Source: Flavobacteriales bacterium
Lineage (GTDB): Bacteria; Bacteroidota; Bacteroidia; CAIKAF01
Reading direction: 5' to 3'
NCBI GenBank assembly: GCA_025055635.1
Contig: JANWWQ010000009.1
Span: 2,857-62,666, forward strand
DNA: 59,810 bases
Position 1 is the first letter of the stretch. Every line of letters begins with the position of its first letter. A program made the translations under genes and the position numbers. Positions 1,998-10,435 of the stretch are shown one piece after another. The notes under the pieces were generated by a model, which saw only the letters and a program-made list of their open reading frames with translations, did no database searches and was not told the origin of the DNA.

Positions 1998-4900
1998 TCA
2001 ACGAACCAGGGTCACTGTGCCGTGCAGCGTCTTGCCCAAGGCATCCACAATGTAAAAATATACCCCTTCGCTGGCTACCTGGTCGGATTTCCACACCCTA
2101 CCATCCCAGCATTTTTTATTGAGTTCGCGCGAATCAAATATCAGATTGCCCCAGCGGTTATAAATCAACATGTCGTAACAATCCTCCAAGCCAATTGGTG
2201 CAAAGCAATCATTCAGTGTGGGCGAAACCACAGGAGTAAAGATATTGGGCATGAGCAGCTCTCCGAAGTAGTGTTCCAGCGCTTTGGTTTTATGCGATTT
2301 GCATATTGTGTCACGGCATAATCCGTACTCGGCTGCCACGCATACAGTAATTAGACTGTCGTAAGGTACAGCAACATCGTTAGGGGTTTCAATGGGACCT
2401 CCGTTTTGGAAAAACCATTGCAAAGTATCGGCACTACCACCCGGAAAAAGTTCCAGTTTTAGGCTTAGGCCGAGGCATGAAGCGTATTCAGTAATGGCAA
2501 TACTATCGCTACCCAGGTTAAACACCTGCACTTGTACGGTATCGGAGTTCACACAGGCGGTGGAATCGTTGACCAAGTGCACTGTGAGAACGTAGGAAAT
2601 GGTGGAATGCGGCGTGGCCACAGGGTTTGGCACGTTGGGATCGCTCAACCAGGTCGCCGGACTCCACTGGTAGGCCAGGGCTGGTTCAGGGTTGCCAGGG
2701 CCCAACTGAATAGACTCTCCTTCACAGATGCTTGTATCATTACCCGCTACGGCAGGATAATCCAACACTACGACGAGCTTGGTCAAGGTGTCGCTGCACT
2801 GACTGTTACTCACAACCACTGTGTATTGCGTAGTAGCCAAGGGTGTACAGTAAGGCTGGAGCGAATTGGTGGATGATAGACCATCAGGAGGAGTCCACTG
2901 AGCAGTTAGTCCAGGCGTCAGAGGGAGGTCGGTGATCTGAAAAGTTTTTCCCTTGCACACGCTGGTATCCGCTAGAGTGAAAGTACCGAGTGAAATCACC
3001 GTAATCTGTCGTGAAATGGTGGTAGAGCAATTGCCCAACGTCACCGTTACCGTGAAAGTGGTGGTCTGCGTGAGATTTGCCAAAGGATTAGGCAATGTGG
3101 GGTCGTTTACGGCCGAAGCCGGACTCCATGAATAGGTGGCTCCCGGGATGGCTGAAGCAAAACCAATGTGCACAGGGCCCGCACATACGGTAGTATCATT
3201 AAGCACCAGGTTGGGAAAAGGCTGCACCACTACGGGGTAGATGATGGTGTCAGTGCATATACCATTTGATATTAAAAGATTATACGTGATGCTTCCCACA
3301 TTTGAATCAAAGATGGGATTTGAAACACTGGTATTGCTCAGGCCCGTTGCGGGCGTCCATTGGTAAGTAACTGAAGGATCGCCCGAGGGTGGAAATCCAA
3401 TCTGCGCCGGTTGCGAGGCACATACATACACAGGAGGATTTTGGGTGGTGCTGTTTCCAAAGATGTATACCTGTTTTACTATGCTATCTTCCGCATTGCA
3501 AGTAGTTCCAGTATTATTGAAGGCCACCAGGGTGACATTGTACGTACCTGGGGTGGTGTACGTCACCGTGGGATTGGTTTGGGTGGATGTTTGACCGTTT
3601 CCGAAATCCCAGTGGTATGAAACACCGTTAACGCTTAGATTATTAAAAGTGATAGTAGCGGGCGCACACTGGGCTGGAGGCACCGTAAAGTCAGCCAGTA
3701 AGGTCGGGAAGTCAAAATTAATTTTGAAAACACCATTGTTACAGTTGATGGAATTGTTGGTAGCCGACCAGGCACCAGGAGAGGTAGGAAAATCCGACCA
3801 GCCTCCGCATCCTGCACATACTGCCTGATAAATTTCCCCTTTCCGGTTAAAGCGGCTGGTGCCCCCGTCCACATGTTCTGCGGAAGTACCTCCACCAAAG
3901 AAGGTAGCGTAATACAGAGAGGCAGCATTCTCCTCCAGGATCATGACGTAAAAGTCACTACCATTGGTTGTAGTCTGCAGGGCGCCGGTGGTAACGGGAA
4001 GCCCTGTGGTGGTACATCCGGGAATTGGGGAATTTACAATACCTCCCCAGCCACTCATATAAATCTTATTGCACACGTCCACCAAGAACGCCGAAGGCAC
4101 AATATTGATTTGTCCGGGTGAAGTCCCCCACTGGGTACTCCAAATTATGGAGGTCAGACCATTATTTAATTTGCTCACAAATTGGGCTCCACCTACATTG
4201 AAGAATGTGGCATTCTGTATGAGCTGGCTACCTGTATGTTGCGTCTGCCCGAACACATACACTTCACCCACTTTATTAGTCTCCACGAAGTAAGTTTGGT
4301 CGTAAGAACTGGTGCCGAAGTAAATGGAAGTCAAAATCTGAGTCCCGTCAGCCTTAATGCGGCTGATAAAACCGTCCACATCACCATTGAAATTGGAAAA
4401 ACCGGGAATGCCCGTCGTGGGAAAATTGGTGGAATTTGTACCGCCTGACACCAGCACATTACCATTTTTTTCTATCGCCAGGGAGTAGCCTGCATCCGCA
4501 CCGCTGCCACCCAAATATCCAGCCCAGAATAGGGTTGTAAGATTATTGTCCATTTTGAAAACCACCGCATCTTGAGCCCCCCCCGCATAGACCGGCCCAA
4601 AGGAGTTCTGTACCCCAGGAAAATTCTGAGATTGTGTGGTCGTAGCCACATAAATGTTATTAAATAAGTCTATATCAATTTCACCCCGAGCCACATCGGC
4701 ATAATTTTTATCCAATCCCGGTGTGGGATTCACCCCATCATTGCCACTGCCACCTACGTAGGTACTGGCCATCAATTGACTGCCGTCATTCTTAATTCGA
4801 CTTATGAATATGTCGCAGCCTTGAGGGTAATTGAAGGAGTAAATCATATTTAAACTGGTACCCCCGTTAAATGTATTGTCATAGGCACCAGGGGTGGTAG

Positions 4901-5921
4901 GAAAATTGGCCGACCCCGTGGTCCCTAACACGAATAATTCCCCATAATTGTTAACCACTAGGCTATGAGGATTTTCGGCTCCTGATCCGCCCAGATAGGT
5001 GCTCCACAGGTTGGAAGTGAGAGTCGCATTAAATTTGGTCACAGATACATCGGTTAAGCCAGCTCCAAATGTGGGTTGAAACACCCCTGTTGTAGTGGGA
5101 TATCCTACATTAAAGACATTGCCTGCAATGAACACGTTTCCGTAGGCGTCATAGGTAGCCGTGAACCCAAAATTATCGGCCGTGCTACCGGTGTAGGTGG
5201 CGTAGAATATTACAGGGTCCAACACTAGGGTTCGGCGGGAATCGTACCCTTGCGGAAAAACGAACCTCACCCGCTGGCCCTCTACGGCATATTGGCAGGC
5301 TACTTTTTCTTCAGGAGCATCCGCATACCAGGCCACAGGCTGGTCTTCCTTGACATAGCCTACTTCCGTCCCTATTAAAAGGCGGCCAAATTCATCAATG
5401 GCGATTTGATCAGCCCCCTCCACATCCAAGTAAAGAAGAGCAGGATCAAATCCGGGTTGGAGCAACAGATTGTATTTGGCTCCAGGATGGCGAGTCAACC
5501 ACTCCTGTACAATCCGTCCCTCCGACCCAATCAGGCGTACTTTCCTGAAGGAACGGGCCCGTGAGGCCCAACGGGAGGGATCTTGACCTATGAAAAAATT
5601 TTCATAATAGGACGTCTCTTCCAGACTTTCTGGACGGGTGCCTACCAGCCAGCCGCAGGTGATTTTAATATGGGCAAGCTTTATTGGCCGGCTCTCCGGA
5701 TTAGAAGTACCGTTGTGCCATGATTCGAGTATCCCTTTATCATATAAAACATGCGAGTATCCATTAGGCCTTAAAAACAGCGCTCCTCCGGAAATCAATA
5801 AACGGTGGGTTACTTCCGCGGACCACTGCCCTTTATTCTCAATGAATAAAGGCTCTCCCGTGGCTCCAACAGAAGAAATGCCAATTAAGAAAAATGCAGC
5901 AAAATGCCCAGCGTATTTCAT
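1998..5921 (-). CDS. Giant T9SS type-B surface protein with SBBP-like propeller repeats and PKD domain
   Basis: 1307 residues. A Sec signal peptide (residues 1-20) is followed by FIENKGQW, the opening of the Bacteroidota N-terminal domain (DUF7948-like) that precedes SBBP beta-propeller repeats. Residues about 240-720 hold repeats of the form YLGGSGAD...GNVLVSGGT...FPTT, typical of SBBP. A PKD domain (YHWDFGNGQTS, about 745-820) follows, then several Ig/PKD-like modules with W-x-P-A-x-x-L motifs (830-1210). The last ~85 residues form a gliding-motility type C-terminal domain (NIFTP...LIYNRWGNLIF...GVYFYIVD...GTVTLVR), the type-B T9SS signal. It is therefore likely exported by SecYEG, then T9SS, and fixed at the cell surface. 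Ligand unknown; adhesion is only a family-level guess. Confidence 0.93.
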   Translation of the reverse strand: MKYAGHFAAFFLIGISSVGATGEPLFIENKGQWSAEVTHRLLISGGALFLRPNGYSHVLYDKGILESWHNGTSNPESRPIKLAHIKITCGWLVGTRPESLEETSYYENFFIGQDPSRWASRARSFRKVRLIGSEGRIVQEWLTRHPGAKYNLLLQPGFDPALLYLDVEGADQIAIDEFGRLLIGTEVGYVKEDQPVAWYADAPEEKVACQYAVEGQRVRFVFPQGYDSRRTLVLDPVIFYATYTGSTADNFGFTATYDAYGNVFIAGNVFNVGYPTTTGVFQPTFGAGLTDVSVTKFNATLTSNLWSTYLGGSGAENPHSLVVNNYGELFVLGTTGSANFPTTPGAYDNTFNGGTSLNMIYSFNYPQGCDIFISRIKNDGSQLMASTYVGGSGNDGVNPTPGLDKNYADVARGEIDIDLFNNIYVATTTQSQNFPGVQNSFGPVYAGGAQDAVVFKMDNNLTTLFWAGYLGGSGADAGYSLAIEKNGNVLVSGGTNSTNFPTTGIPGFSNFNGDVDGFISRIKADGTQILTSIYFGTSSYDQTYFVETNKVGEVYVFGQTQHTGSQLIQNATFFNVGGAQFVSKLNNGLTSIIWSTQWGTSPGQINIVPSAFLVDVCNKIYMSGWGGIVNSPIPGCTTTGLPVTTGALQTTTNGSDFYVMILEENAASLYYATFFGGGTSAEHVDGGTSRFNRKGEIYQAVCAGCGGWSDFPTSPGAWSATNNSINCNNGVFKINFDFPTLLADFTVPPAQCAPATITFNNLSVNGVSYHWDFGNGQTSTQTNPTVTYTTPGTYNVTLVAFNNTGTTCNAEDSIVKQVYIFGNSTTQNPPVYVCASQPAQIGFPPSGDPSVTYQWTPATGLSNTSVSNPIFDSNVGSITYNLLISNGICTDTIIYPVVVQPFPNLVLNDTTVCAGPVHIGFASAIPGATYSWSPASAVNDPTLPNPLANLTQTTTFTVTVTLGNCSTTISRQITVISLGTFTLADTSVCKGKTFQITDLPLTPGLTAQWTPPDGLSSTNSLQPYCTPLATTQYTVVVSNSQCSDTLTKLVVVLDYPAVAGNDTSICEGESIQLGPGNPEPALAYQWSPATWLSDPNVPNPVATPHSTISYVLTVHLVNDSTACVNSDTVQVQVFNLGSDSIAITEYASCLGLSLKLELFPGGSADTLQWFFQNGGPIETPNDVAVPYDSLITVCVAAEYGLCRDTICKSHKTKALEHYFGELLMPNIFTPVVSPTLNDCFAPIGLEDCYDMLIYNRWGNLIFDSRELNKKCWDGRVWKSDQVASEGVYFYIVDALGKTLHGTVTLVR

Positions 5922-6401
5922 TTTTAGTTAAAAGAGAGTTCAGTTTTTTGACGTTGAACTGTAATTTTTCGCTGCATATACCGTTTAATAATGTTTAGAA
6001 ACTATGGCACACTTTTACCCCTTTGTACCCTCTTTTTTCATTTACAAAAATAAAGAATTCTGGAACAAACCCTCTGAATTTACCTTAAAGTTTGTTATCG
6101 GATATGCATCGGCCCTGTATATCGTTCATTCCCGCCTCTGTGGAGAAATAGCGCTATTCCTGAATTAATCTGAAGGTTCGGGAGATAGTTTGTACCCTTT
6201 CCCGGCTTTCCTAATTTTAGAGCTATCCTTCGGACTATTCCAATGTTTTAAGCAAAAGTTTTAAATGCCTTTAATCATTTTATTGACAATTTTACAAGGA
6301 TATCTCAAGAAGCTCCCTTATTAATCCCTCCCTATTTTTGGCTTTTGAAAAGCTCCTAAAAACCTTCCTTTGAACGGGTAATTTCAAGCAGGCAACTCTT
6401 T
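5922..6401. other. 480-base intergenic region
   Basis: Lies between divergent genes for the surface protein (minus) and the channel (plus). I see no gene or stable hairpin. It must hold both promoters. The only clear match is TATTTTTG at 6333-6340 on the plus strand. Confidence 0.6.
6333..6340 (+). promoter_or_regulatory. Candidate -7 box TATTTTTG upstream of ion channel gene
   Basis: Exact TAnnTTTG match, giving a leader of roughly 55-60 bases before the ATG at 6402. No clear TTTG -33 partner. Confidence 0.45.
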
Positions 6402-7211
6402 ATGCTGAGTCATTTTTTTCTTAATAACAAATTTATCCTTTGCCTTATTGCAGCTAACGCACTAATAATTTTTTTCCAGGGTTTTCTCCAAGCTGAAAGT
6501 GTTGAAAACAAACTGCTAGATACCGCTGACCATATTCTCACCCTCATGTTTCTTATTGAAGCCCTGGTTAAATTGAGATCTTGGGGCATTCGCACCTATT
6601 TTTCAGATGGGTGGAATGTGTTTGACTTTATTCTGGTAGTGGTGGCTTTGCCGTCTCTTGTCTTCTGGCTCACGCCTGTCCAGGTGATTCAGATGGATTT
6701 TCTGCTGGCCCTGCGGGTGTTACGCATTTTCAAGTTTTTCAGAGTTCTGCGCTTTATTCCTAATGTGGAACATCTGATATTGGGAGTGCTTCGGGCTCTG
6801 CGTTCATCCATTCTTGTAGTGTTTGCCTTTGTGATCTTTAATTTCATTTTTGCCATCCTGTCCTTTTACTTCTTCGGTCACCTGGCCCCAGAATACTTCG
6901 GTAATCCTCTTCTGGCTTTTTACTCCACTTTTAAAATTTTCACGGTGGAAGGCTGGTACGAGGTGCCCGACCTCATCGCCGAGCGCAGTAATTCGGTGTG
7001 GCTATCCGTGGCAGCCCGCATTTACTTCGTCCTGATGCTATTTGGAGGAGGAATATTTGGACTCTCTCTCATAAACTCCATTTTCGTGGAGAGCATGATG
7101 AGCGATAGCAATCGGGATTTGGAAATTAAAGTGGATGAGCTTCGCCTAGAAATTCAACAACTACGCCAATCCTTGGAGTCCCGCACAAAAACCGATAGAG
7201 AAAATTCCTGA
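6402..7211 (+). CDS. Single-domain voltage-gated cation channel (NaChBac/Cav-like ion transporter)
   Basis: 269 residues with the six-segment plan of a prokaryotic Nav/Cav subunit, expected to act as a homotetramer. S1 is about residues 10-28, S2 40-58 with conserved acidic residues, and S3 71-90 with WNVFDF. S4 carries five positive residues at every third position (R105, R108, K111, R114, R117), so voltage sensing is intact. S5 is about 136-158, the pore helix 168-180 and S6 198-228. The filter reads TVEGWYE (181-187): E183 is the ring glutamate, and Gly replaces the usual Ser after it, with an extra Glu at 187. A short coiled coil (about 230-260) follows, as in NavAb-type tails. It stands alone between two convergent/divergent surface-protein genes. 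Ion selectivity is inferred, not shown. Confidence 0.92.
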   Translation: MLSHFFLNNKFILCLIAANALIIFFQGFLQAESVENKLLDTADHILTLMFLIEALVKLRSWGIRTYFSDGWNVFDFILVVVALPSLVFWLTPVQVIQMDFLLALRVLRIFKFFRVLRFIPNVEHLILGVLRALRSSILVVFAFVIFNFIFAILSFYFFGHLAPEYFGNPLLAFYSTFKIFTVEGWYEVPDLIAERSNSVWLSVAARIYFVLMLFGGGIFGLSLINSIFVESMMSDSNRDLEIKVDELRLEIQQLRQSLESRTKTDRENS

Positions 7212-7234: not shown

Positions 7235-10200
7235 TTAACGAATGAGGGTCACTGCTCCCCTGACAGTTTTGAGCTTATTGGCATAGTTACGAAATTGAAT
7301 CAAATACACGTAAGTGTCTTGTTTCATCATGCTGCCACGGTTCATGTAGCGGCCATTCCAGCCCTCATAGACGTCCTCGCTGTAATATACCACCTGGCCC
7401 CAGCGGTCAAAGATCCACACCTTGTAATCTCTGATATAGCTTAAGACAGGCCTCCACACCTCATTGTGGTTGTTGCCGTCGGGGGTAAACGCCGTGGGAA
7501 TAAAAACCTCCGTCACAGGATTCACGAGCACATGGGCCGTGGCCGTGTCGGTACATCCGAAAGGCGTACGTACAATTTGGGTGATGGTGAATAGTCCCTC
7601 ACTCTGATAGAGGTGTGAGGGGTTCTGCTCGGTGGATTGCCAACCGTCGCCAAAGGTGTAAAACCACTGGGTTGCGTAAAGCGAATTGTCTGTAATTACC
7701 ACGTGGGCGTCTTCCAGATCCACGACCGGCGGGTGGGCCGAAAAGCCTGCCTCCGGCGACGGATAGACAGCCACAACATCAGATAGTTGGACCGAGGCTG
7801 AGCAGCCGTTGCCATCTGTCACCATTAGGGTAACACTGTAGGTGCCATGGTCTGTATAGACAACTGAAGGGCTGAGACCTGCACCACTTTCCCCATTACC
7901 GAAGTTCCACGTAGCCAACAAAGGAGGCGCACCCGTGCTGGTACTTGTGAATTGCACTGTGAGCGGGGCACATCCTGAGGGGGGAGAAAGCGTGAAGGAT
8001 GGCACAGGCTCCGCCCAGACCTCCACGGAAGCCTGGGCCTGGGCCTGACATCCGTTGTCGTTCACGAAGAGCGAAATCGGATGTACCCCTGCCTGATTCC
8101 AGGTAATGTTCTGTGGGTTTTGAGCGGAGGAAGTGGCCGGAGAGCCACCTGGGAAGCTCCATTGGAAAACGGCTGTGGGTCCCCAGGAGCCCTGTACGGT
8201 AAAGTCAAATGAGTTGCCCGTGAGGCATTGAGGAGGGGGAGCCACAATATTTACTTGTGGCAAAGGCAACACCGTGAGATTTTGCACGTACGGCTGGGAT
8301 GTACAACCGTTTTCCGACACGGCTAGGCTAATGGACACCTGGCCGGGCTGGTTATAGGCTACCTGATAAGGCCCGGCAGAAGCGCCGCTAAGTATCTGGC
8401 CTCCCCCAAAGTTCCAGTTGAAAGCGGTGGCCGGACTGCCGTTCCCCGTATAGGTAATCGTGGTGGCTTGGCCGGCACAGATAGGTGTGGTAATTGTGAA
8501 GGTGGCTGAGGGACTGGCATTTACAGTTACTGTTTGGGAGAAAGGCTGTGAAGCGCAACCATTTTCAATGACCTGCAAGGAAATAGTGTAGTTGCCGGCT
8601 GTGTTCCAGCTGACCTGGTAAGGACCAGCCGCGCTGCCAGATTGTACGCTGCCGCCTGCAAAATTCCACATAAACTGGGCTGCGGCACCGGCATTACCAG
8701 TGTAGGTAATCGTGCTATTTTGACCGACGCAAACGGGGGTGGAGGCCGTAAAGAAGGCGGTAGGGGAAGATAAAATAACAATATTGTGAACGGTGGTTGT
8801 GGGGGGGCAGCCGGCTTCCGTCACGGTCAGTGACACAGCATACTGCCCAGAAACAGGCCAGGAAACCTGATAAGGCCCCTGACCCGAGCCTGAAAGAACC
8901 GTACCTCCACCAAAATCCCATTGGTAAGTAGCTGTGGGCTGTCCGGTACCCGTATAAGTGATGTCTACGGATTGGCCCACGCACGCCGTCGCAGGAAGGT
9001 TAAAATCGGCCGTGGGTGGTGAACCCACCGACACGGTGGTCTGAGCGGAGGCAGATTGGCCGCATTGGTCGCTCACCGTAACCGTGTAAGTGGTGGTAAC
9101 AGCGGGGTTCACCGAAATTGTCGGGGTGTTGCCTGCGCCATTATCCCAATTATATGTGATATTGCCGTAGCCTCCTGTTGCCGTGGCAGTGATGGTGGTG
9201 CCCGTTCCCCCAGCGCATAGGCTGATGTTTGGGGGTACGGACACCGTGAGAGGTTCGGTATCTCCTATCTGAAGCGTGTAAGCCCCAGACCCACAAACTG
9301 AATTTTGAAGCGTGATGGTAACGGTCTCTAAACCTTCGGTTATGCCATCGGGTAGAGCATTAATATAGAGATTAGCAGAGGTTTGGCCCGCTGGGATTGT
9401 AATAGAATTAGGAATAGCCTGATAGTCCACGCCGTTGATGGCAGTACCGCCCACAGTAAAGGATATAGTGATATTAGACACAGCCGGGGAGGCCAATGAG
9501 AAGGTAAAGTAGTTCACATCTATTCCGCAGGCCTCGTAGGCTGTGCCTCCAGGAAAGAGGGTAGTGGACGTTACGGTCACCGTATTTCCACCGGGTGAGT
9601 AAAGTCCATCCTGTTTGATGAAAACCCAGGAGTCATAAATCTCATCTCCGCCATCGGCAATCATCAGCCGGATATGATAAGTGGAACAAGGTATCACTGT
9701 GGCGGTGGCCGTGAGCACAGTAGTGAAAGCATCCATCGCCAGGGAGTTGCCAGTACAGTTGTCCACGAAATAGGCACAGTTGTAGCAAGGTCCGAAGGCA
9801 CACCCTCCCCAATTGCCGTTATTGATATTATCAATGGTCACAGGCAAGGAGGTTCCTGGTACGAGGGCAATGTTTTGCTGGCCCACTATCCCCGGCCCAC
9901 TTATGAAAAAGGCAAACGCATCGTTGTATCCAGAGTTTACCCATTCGTTGTACTCCTCGGAACCGAACACATACTCCACGTTGATTTGATTGGAAAGAGG
10001 AACAAAATCAAATTCCAACACCAATCCGTCGTAAGTGGTGGCTCCGGCGATGGAATTCAGCTCGGGGTAAGTGGTACCGCCATTCTGACCACTGATAAAA
10101 TTGGATGCCGGGCCCGCAAAACTGGCCGCGTTTGCAGGATCCAAAAGACCTGTACTCATGACTACGCCACTATTCAGGCCCAGGTTCGTACTGCTGCCAT

Positions 10201-10435
10201 TGGTGAATACACCGATGGCGTTCGGGTCGCCATTGTAGAAGACATTGGAATAAATGATACCTGGCCCGGTAAGAGTGGCCACATACTGATTAATAGTTTG
10301 TTGGGTTATAGAAATTTGTGAAAAAATTGGAAAGAAGCCGCTAAAAAATGAGAGTAAGCTTGCTAATGTTTCACGAGTCCTCACAGGTTGAGGTCTAGCC
10401 ACATGCACTTGATTTTTTATAAACTCAAATAGCAT
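7235..10435 (-). CDS. T9SS type-B surface protein with choice-of-anchor L, Calx-beta-like and PKD repeats
   Basis: 1066 residues. After a long basic N-terminus and hydrophobic signal (LASLLSFFSGFFPIFSQ, about 24-40) comes a choice-of-anchor L domain (about 40-270; LNLGLNSGVVMSTG and EYVFGSEEYNEWVN are characteristic). A Calx-beta-like module (about 290-390; GTAINGVDY...ITIPAGQTS) and about six PKD/Ig-like modules with Y-x-WDFGGG or WNFAGG motifs follow (390-975). The C-terminal ~85 residues (VFIPTAFTPDGNNHNE...IFDRWGQVVY...GAVTLIR) are a textbook gliding-motility/type-B T9SS domain. It probably forms a surface adhesin or matrix protein. The gene converges on the channel gene with a 23-base gap and has no co-transcribed partner downstream. 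Confidence 0.93.
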   Translation of the reverse strand: MLFEFIKNQVHVARPQPVRTRETLASLLSFFSGFFPIFSQISITQQTINQYVATLTGPGIIYSNVFYNGDPNAIGVFTNGSSTNLGLNSGVVMSTGLLDPANAASFAGPASNFISGQNGGTTYPELNSIAGATTYDGLVLEFDFVPLSNQINVEYVFGSEEYNEWVNSGYNDAFAFFISGPGIVGQQNIALVPGTSLPVTIDNINNGNWGGCAFGPCYNCAYFVDNCTGNSLAMDAFTTVLTATATVIPCSTYHIRLMIADGGDEIYDSWVFIKQDGLYSPGGNTVTVTSTTLFPGGTAYEACGIDVNYFTFSLASPAVSNITISFTVGGTAINGVDYQAIPNSITIPAGQTSANLYINALPDGITEGLETVTITLQNSVCGSGAYTLQIGDTEPLTVSVPPNISLCAGGTGTTITATATGGYGNITYNWDNGAGNTPTISVNPAVTTTYTVTVSDQCGQSASAQTTVSVGSPPTADFNLPATACVGQSVDITYTGTGQPTATYQWDFGGGTVLSGSGQGPYQVSWPVSGQYAVSLTVTEAGCPPTTTVHNIVILSSPTAFFTASTPVCVGQNSTITYTGNAGAAAQFMWNFAGGSVQSGSAAGPYQVSWNTAGNYTISLQVIENGCASQPFSQTVTVNASPSATFTITTPICAGQATTITYTGNGSPATAFNWNFGGGQILSGASAGPYQVAYNQPGQVSISLAVSENGCTSQPYVQNLTVLPLPQVNIVAPPPQCLTGNSFDFTVQGSWGPTAVFQWSFPGGSPATSSAQNPQNITWNQAGVHPISLFVNDNGCQAQAQASVEVWAEPVPSFTLSPPSGCAPLTVQFTSTSTGAPPLLATWNFGNGESGAGLSPSVVYTDHGTYSVTLMVTDGNGCSASVQLSDVVAVYPSPEAGFSAHPPVVDLEDAHVVITDNSLYATQWFYTFGDGWQSTEQNPSHLYQSEGLFTITQIVRTPFGCTDTATAHVLVNPVTEVFIPTAFTPDGNNHNEVWRPVLSYIRDYKVWIFDRWGQVVYYSEDVYEGWNGRYMNRGSMMKQDTYVYLIQFRNYANKLKTVRGAVTLIR

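Follow-up and report, generated by a model that had tools for sequence, protein, structure and literature searches.

The channel of Meiothermus ruber, CavMr, was the first native prokaryotic Ca2+ channel to be described (PMC7041947), and according to a 2026 paper it is still the only one that has been identified (PMC12919392). Its selectivity filter reads TLEGWVD; that of NavPp from Plesiocystis pacifica reads TLEDWTD, and those of NavAb and NaChBac start with TLESW. The glycine at filter position 4 helps to determine how selective CavMr is for Ca2+, the PCa/PNa being above 200 in the wild type, 11.9 in the G4S mutant and 7.7 in G4D. CavMr also stays Ca2+-selective when the acid at position 7 is replaced (D7M), Val6 is needed for selectivity, which is lost in V6T, and mutants at positions 4 and 6 are permeable to K+ and Cs+. 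Ca2+ blocks wild-type NavPp, which has a preference for Na+, and the D4G mutant of this channel acquires divalent selectivity. A "beacon" rule has been formulated, according to which Gly at position 4 of a one-domain channel predicts Ca2+ selectivity (PMC10120453). The NavAb mutant S178G, which has the filter TLEGW, keeps a PCa/PNa below 0.01 (PMC12919392), so that selectivity does not follow the glycine from one scaffold to another; when filters were exchanged between CavMr and NavAb, no current was obtained. Outside the filter, CavMr has an L6 loop containing a disulfide (PMC10120453), and its Gly240 is stated to correspond to Gly229 of NaChBac. The failure of S178G to turn NavAb into a Ca2+-selective channel has made the portability of the glycine a live question, and a second, distant group of channels with CavMr's Gly would test a portable rule against scaffold dependence.

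The gene described here lies in a 59,810-nucleotide stretch of a Flavobacteriales contig (JANWWQ010000009.1; hereafter the window). It is one open frame of 269 codons on the plus strand, with its ATG at 6402 and its stop ending at 7211, and the antisense strand of the same interval is closed by several stops. The product matches PF00520 (Ion_trans) over residues 10-232 (E 4.7e-29; 101.7 bits against a Pfam gathering cut-off of 25) and is the sole Ion_trans match in its genome, which is 94% complete. Compared with a relative from the same genus, to which it is 75% identical, dN is 0.21 and dS is saturated, which argues that the protein is under selection. The AlphaFold monomer model (mean pLDDT 91) contains S1-S6 and two pore helices, with S6 continuing into a long C-terminal helix so that residues 199-268 form one unbroken helix. 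When this model was submitted to Foldseek, the top match was CatSper2 (chain 7eeb_B), followed by NavMs and NavAb. An NCBIfam search with the channel returned no family, and a search of plasmid records gave distant matches only. The open reading frame is a real gene, typical of its clade (Table 1).

Table 1. Features of the channel gene, with examples of paired genes in related loci
Feature	Position	Strand	Evidence or remark
Single-domain voltage-gated cation channel ORF (predicted), 269 aa	6402..7211	+	PF00520, AlphaFold, Foldseek
S1-S4 voltage-sensor domain, residues 9-118	6426..6755	+	alignment, AlphaFold model
S4 helix, residues 103-118	6708..6755	+	R105, R108, K111, R114, R117, spaced every third residue
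Selectivity filter T181-V-E-G-W-Y-E187	6942..6962	+	clade alignment, 100 rows
Pro189, two residues past the filter, clade marker	6966..6968	+	96/100 clade rows, 0/29 outside rows
S6 signature GGIFGLSLINSIFVESMMSD, residues 216-235	7047..7106	+	Ser222 replaces conserved Asn; Asn225 one turn lower
C-terminal helix, residues 236-268	7107..7205	+	AlphaFold monomer model, helix 199-268
Channel and ~617-aa protein pairs, examples	L069:6001-8630; L046:6001-8629; L065:4147-6771		

When 84,980 species genomes were scanned with degenerate patterns, 177 relatives were identified and the best 80 of them retrieved; protein and profile searches added nine clade loci from 149 near genomes and ten from 396 phylum-wide genomes, some of these being the same gene as in the pattern scan. 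The alignment counts given below compare 100 clade rows with 29 rows of channels outside the clade, and the reference sequences of NavAb and NaChBac agree with PDB 3rvy and 6vwx, respectively. Most hosts belong to the Bacteroidota (Bacteroidales, Marinilabiliales, Flavobacteriales, Cytophagales and Saprospirales), and several are Myxococcota; a clade channel is also carried by single MAG contigs that bear the labels Peregrinibacteria, Desulfobacteraceae or Spirochaetes and may be mis-binned. Members are found in the cultured Bacteroidota Marinifilum, Draconibacterium, Polaribacter and Labilibaculum, and genetics may therefore be possible. Two further Ion_trans-type channels (L136 and G328:C38:57484-58140) have frames of about 770-816 aa and are possibly fused to a large extra region.

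In a 93-row tree, which included NaChBac, NavAb, Bacteroidota channels with TLEDWTD and TLEGWVD filters and two human Cav domains as outside channels, a long branch with an SH-aLRT support of 100 splits the clade from all other channels included, and support for the clade was 98/97 once K+ channels had been added as an outgroup. Forcing the clade together with ancestor-like BacNav (AnclNav-like) rows was 9.9 log units worse, a difference that falls short of formal rejection (p-AU 0.062), in a comparison of long branches among which CavMr was not represented. Judged from these sequences, and from published features in the case of CavMr, the clade appears to be a deep lineage apart from NaChBac, NavAb and the CavMr/NavPp-like channels. 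No description of it, and no electrophysiological recording from a member, was found in the literature searched.

The window channel has, by its sequence, a complete voltage sensor, and voltage gating is thus predicted. The regular basic residues of S4 are accompanied by acidic partners in S2 (Glu53) and S3 (Asp75) that are invariant across the clade, and positions 105, 108, 111, 114 and 117 are basic in 100, 100, 100, 99 and 94 of the 100 clade rows. A sequence-only reading of this DNA had described a five-charge S4 as intact, and all five residues are indeed where it had placed them. Besides the voltage sensor and the C-terminal helix, Glu183 at the ring position, Gly184 next to it and Glu187 at the mouth can be seen directly in the sequence. 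The gene product would belong to the one-domain Nav/Cav superfamily, four copies of it forming a cation channel that is activated by depolarisation. We infer the homotetramer from the family, and the C-terminal helix is likely to be a coiled coil by which the subunits are kept together, as they are in BacNavs. Once the four subunits had assembled, depolarisation would move S4, S6 would open, and Ca2+ would flow inward along its gradient.

Instead of the TLESW of canonical BacNavs, the window channel has TVEGW. Across the 100 aligned clade rows, an acid at 183 and Gly184 are present without exception (100/100 each), and Trp185, Tyr or Phe at 186 and an acid at 187 are each found in 97. Since Gly184 and the acid at position 7 are kept to this extent in the relatives, the filter is not peculiar to the window gene, and its retention in about 100 relatives places it far beyond chance. 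The filter motif was one of the two patterns used in the 84,980-genome scan, and the conservation seen there is biased accordingly; among the 19 members from protein and profile searches, in which the filter pattern was not required, Gly184 and the acid at position 7 are present in all 19 and position 6 is aromatic in 18. Three clade members (L008, L009 and L010) have the filter SGDGFFD, with Phe for Trp and Ser for Thr, and these are the three rows without the filter Trp.

The Gly directly after the ring Glu, to which the sequence-only reading had drawn attention, is confirmed as G184, and the CavMr filter has the same Gly. The description of the filter as extra-acidic is valid with respect to NavAb and NaChBac, which have Met or Ser at position 7, but not with respect to CavMr, which has Asp. 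E187 had additionally been taken as a sign of Ca2+ selectivity, and this argument is not borne out: the position-7 acid is neither extra nor diagnostic, because it is present in CavMr yet dispensable there, and is also present in the Na+-preferring NavPp. The combination of Gly at position 4 with an acid at position 7, which had been named as contrary evidence should it prove common in confirmed Na+ channels, was absent from all those considered (NavAb, NaChBac and NavPp). The proposal of a Ca2+-selective or mixed channel in Bacteroidota thus retains its Gly4, its acid at position 7, its voltage sensor and its host, and is weakened by the insufficiency of Gly, by Tyr at position 6 and by the separateness of the clade.

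Ca2+ entry is proposed here because Gly may widen the entrance above the Glu ring, as has been proposed for CavMr and for animal Cav domains I and III. By the "beacon" rule, the window channel would be Ca2+-selective. Gly184 is suggestive of Ca2+ selectivity and insufficient alone; selectivity would be set by a different scaffold, comprising the aromatic residue at filter position 6, Pro189 and an altered S6. The loss of selectivity in CavMr V6T argues against a Ca2+ preference, the clade having Tyr or Phe at this position, and we regard the chances that the window channel prefers Ca2+ over Na+ as evenly balanced. Somewhat doubtful, by our estimate, is a voltage-gated channel of weak selectivity that passes Na+, K+ and Ca2+ alike through a wide, negative entrance made by Gly and the acids. 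Such a channel would be in keeping with the passage of K+ and Cs+ through CavMr mutants at positions 4 and 6, with an aromatic residue, not Val, at position 6 of the window channel, and with the joint setting of selectivity by filter and scaffold, but the filter hardly varies across a diverse clade, which suggests precise selection among ions. We consider it improbable that the channel is Na+-selective and performs the same job as NavAb or NaChBac. Although NavAb S178G keeps its PCa/PNa below 0.01 with TLEGW, and the fold was placed near NavAb and NavMs by Foldseek, the window channel has an acid at position 7 where NavAb and NaChBac have Met or Ser, and a long, fully supported branch parts the clade from both.

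The proposed Ca2+ channel also departs from known channels in S6. The canonical BacNav Asn of this helix (NavAb MINLVV, NaChBac IFNLFI) is replaced by Ser222; this position is Ser in 100/100 clade rows versus Asn in 29/29 outside rows, and an Asn three residues lower (Asn225) is found in 99 of the 100 clade rows versus none of the 29. The change from Asn to Ser agrees with the tree in setting the clade apart. By breaking an otherwise constant asparagine, the clade provides a natural experiment in how the pore is gated.

The window gene is isolated: the genes on either side of it, at distances of 480 bp and 23 bp, are large and lie on the minus strand, and no partner ORF was found in the upstream interval (5922-6401). 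The flanking genes (1998-5921 and 7235-10435) encode very large, repeat-rich, probably secreted proteins whose C-termini, judged by eye, resemble type IX secretion sorting domains. The nearest relatives of the window gene (L027, L094, L003 and L056) have no neighbour in common with it. Elsewhere in the clade, a nuclease-like or restriction-type gene adjoins the channel in 35 of the 80 loci examined (the best 80 of 177 relatives). A protein of ~617 aa is found directly beside the channel in 28 of these 80 loci, 3' of it in 19 and 5' in 9, and the spacing of the two genes is within -35 to +9 bp in 25 of the 28. These proteins are 57-85% identical to the Polaribacter copy (L069), with D498, E512 and K514 invariant, and an alpha-beta core is predicted where these residues lie. 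The C-terminus gave a sub-threshold Mrr_cat match (E 0.0014), Foldseek with the model of the protein gave weak matches only, the nickase N.BspD6I coming first, and a profile search of PDB sequences returned nothing. We infer that the ~617-aa protein is nuclease-like, with a putative Mrr-like PD-(D/E)xK C-terminus. In six loci (L034, L039, L040, L048, L079 and L085; for example, L079:5992-7845) the channel lies beside a ~350-aa HSDR_N (type I restriction R-subunit N-terminus) protein, the match having an E of 1.2e-11 in the one of the six proteins that was tested, and we read the channel neighbour in L029 as a restriction-modification enzyme. A small conserved ORF upstream of the L030 channel proved to be the tail of a 617-aa protein cut by the contig end.

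The pairs cluster in one derived part of the clade, and there are none on the window's branch. Of 396 Bacteroidota genomes, one encodes the 617-aa protein, which is thus rare; in this genome (L138, G326:C51:658-2499) the contig ends nearby and no channel is visible within the 4 kb examined. It is conceivable that the channel serves as the membrane component of a defence-like module linked to a nuclease, and that the DNA-acting partner is controlled by voltage or by ion entry. The partners counted in the clade loci (the 617-aa protein in 28 of 80, HSDR_N in six and a restriction-modification-like one in one), the rarity of the 617-aa protein and the variation of the module flanks between loci are consistent with such a module. 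The window gene has no partner, however, and neither do its four nearest relatives; the 617-aa protein was not found in the window genome, and PADLOC models match neither this protein nor the channel. We therefore judge this explanation to be very improbable.

PADLOC hits comprised 113 model families near module loci versus 48 near others, in a count of redundant models and not of proteins, and none of the ten flanking proteins closest to five modules had a PADLOC match. By eye, some flanks, those of L029, L035, L042, L069 and L088, contain defence or toxin-antitoxin-like genes, and many contain housekeeping genes. In the literature searched, nothing relevant was found on a system that combines a nuclease with a voltage-gated channel. 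A defence role of the channel/nuclease-like modules is a lead, not a result. The broadest proposal would be that the clade is a class of native voltage-gated Ca2+ channels of prokaryotes not described before, whose S6 Asn is shifted and whose gating is hence different, and that in a derived part of it the channel and a PD-(D/E)xK nuclease-like protein have become a mobile unit of two genes, the voltage sensor controlling the DNA-acting enzyme or being under its control, perhaps as a defence against phages; taken as a whole, this seems rather unlikely to us. The nuclease pairing in some relatives nevertheless provides a first handle on the role of such channels in bacteria.

Among known systems, NavAb and NaChBac resemble the window channel in overall fold, voltage sensor, Glu ring and C-terminal helix, and differ in having Ser at filter position 4, Met or Ser at position 7 and the canonical S6 Asn. 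NavPp and other ancestor-like BacNavs, which occur in several bacterial phyla, share the acid at position 7 but have Asp at position 4 (TLEDWTD), and the Bacteroidota channels with the NavPp filter differ from the clade in their canonical S6 Asn. CatSper and animal Cav domains I and III share Gly at position 4 (TVDGWTD in CatSper3, TLEGWVD in domain I of Cav3.1), but these are heterotetrameric or four-domain eukaryotic channels, and CatSper2, the best Foldseek match, is about 24% identical to the window channel.

CavMr is likewise a one-domain voltage-gated channel with Glu at filter position 3, Gly at 4 and an acid at 7, and its pairing of Gly4 with an acid at 7 recurs in the window channel as G184 and E187. 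The filters differ as TLEGWVD versus TVEGWYE, with Val versus Tyr at position 6. CavMr has Gly240 at the position of NaChBac Gly229, whereas the window channel has Ser226 and all 100 clade rows have Ser or Ala. The distance from the filter Thr (Thr183 in CavMr) to this position is 57 residues in CavMr and 44-46 in the clade; it is 58-59 in Bacteroidota channels with TLEGWVD and TLEDWTD filters. The clade also lacks the L6 disulfide loop of CavMr, two loop Cys being present in 0/100 clade rows; they occur in 10 of the 29 outside rows, all with TLEGWVD or TLEDWTD filters. The window channel lacks both the glycine at the NaChBac Gly229 position and the loop, and CavMr, as judged from its published features and not from its sequence, very probably falls outside this clade. 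Two channels from the window's own bacterial family, L012 (G010) and L013 (G008), have a filter identical to that of CavMr and two Cys in the L6 loop, and they are better Bacteroidota candidates for CavMr relatives than the window gene. We read the clade as a large, uncharacterised lineage of voltage-gated channels that are probably permeable to Ca2+ and may work like CavMr, and not as a member of the CavMr group.
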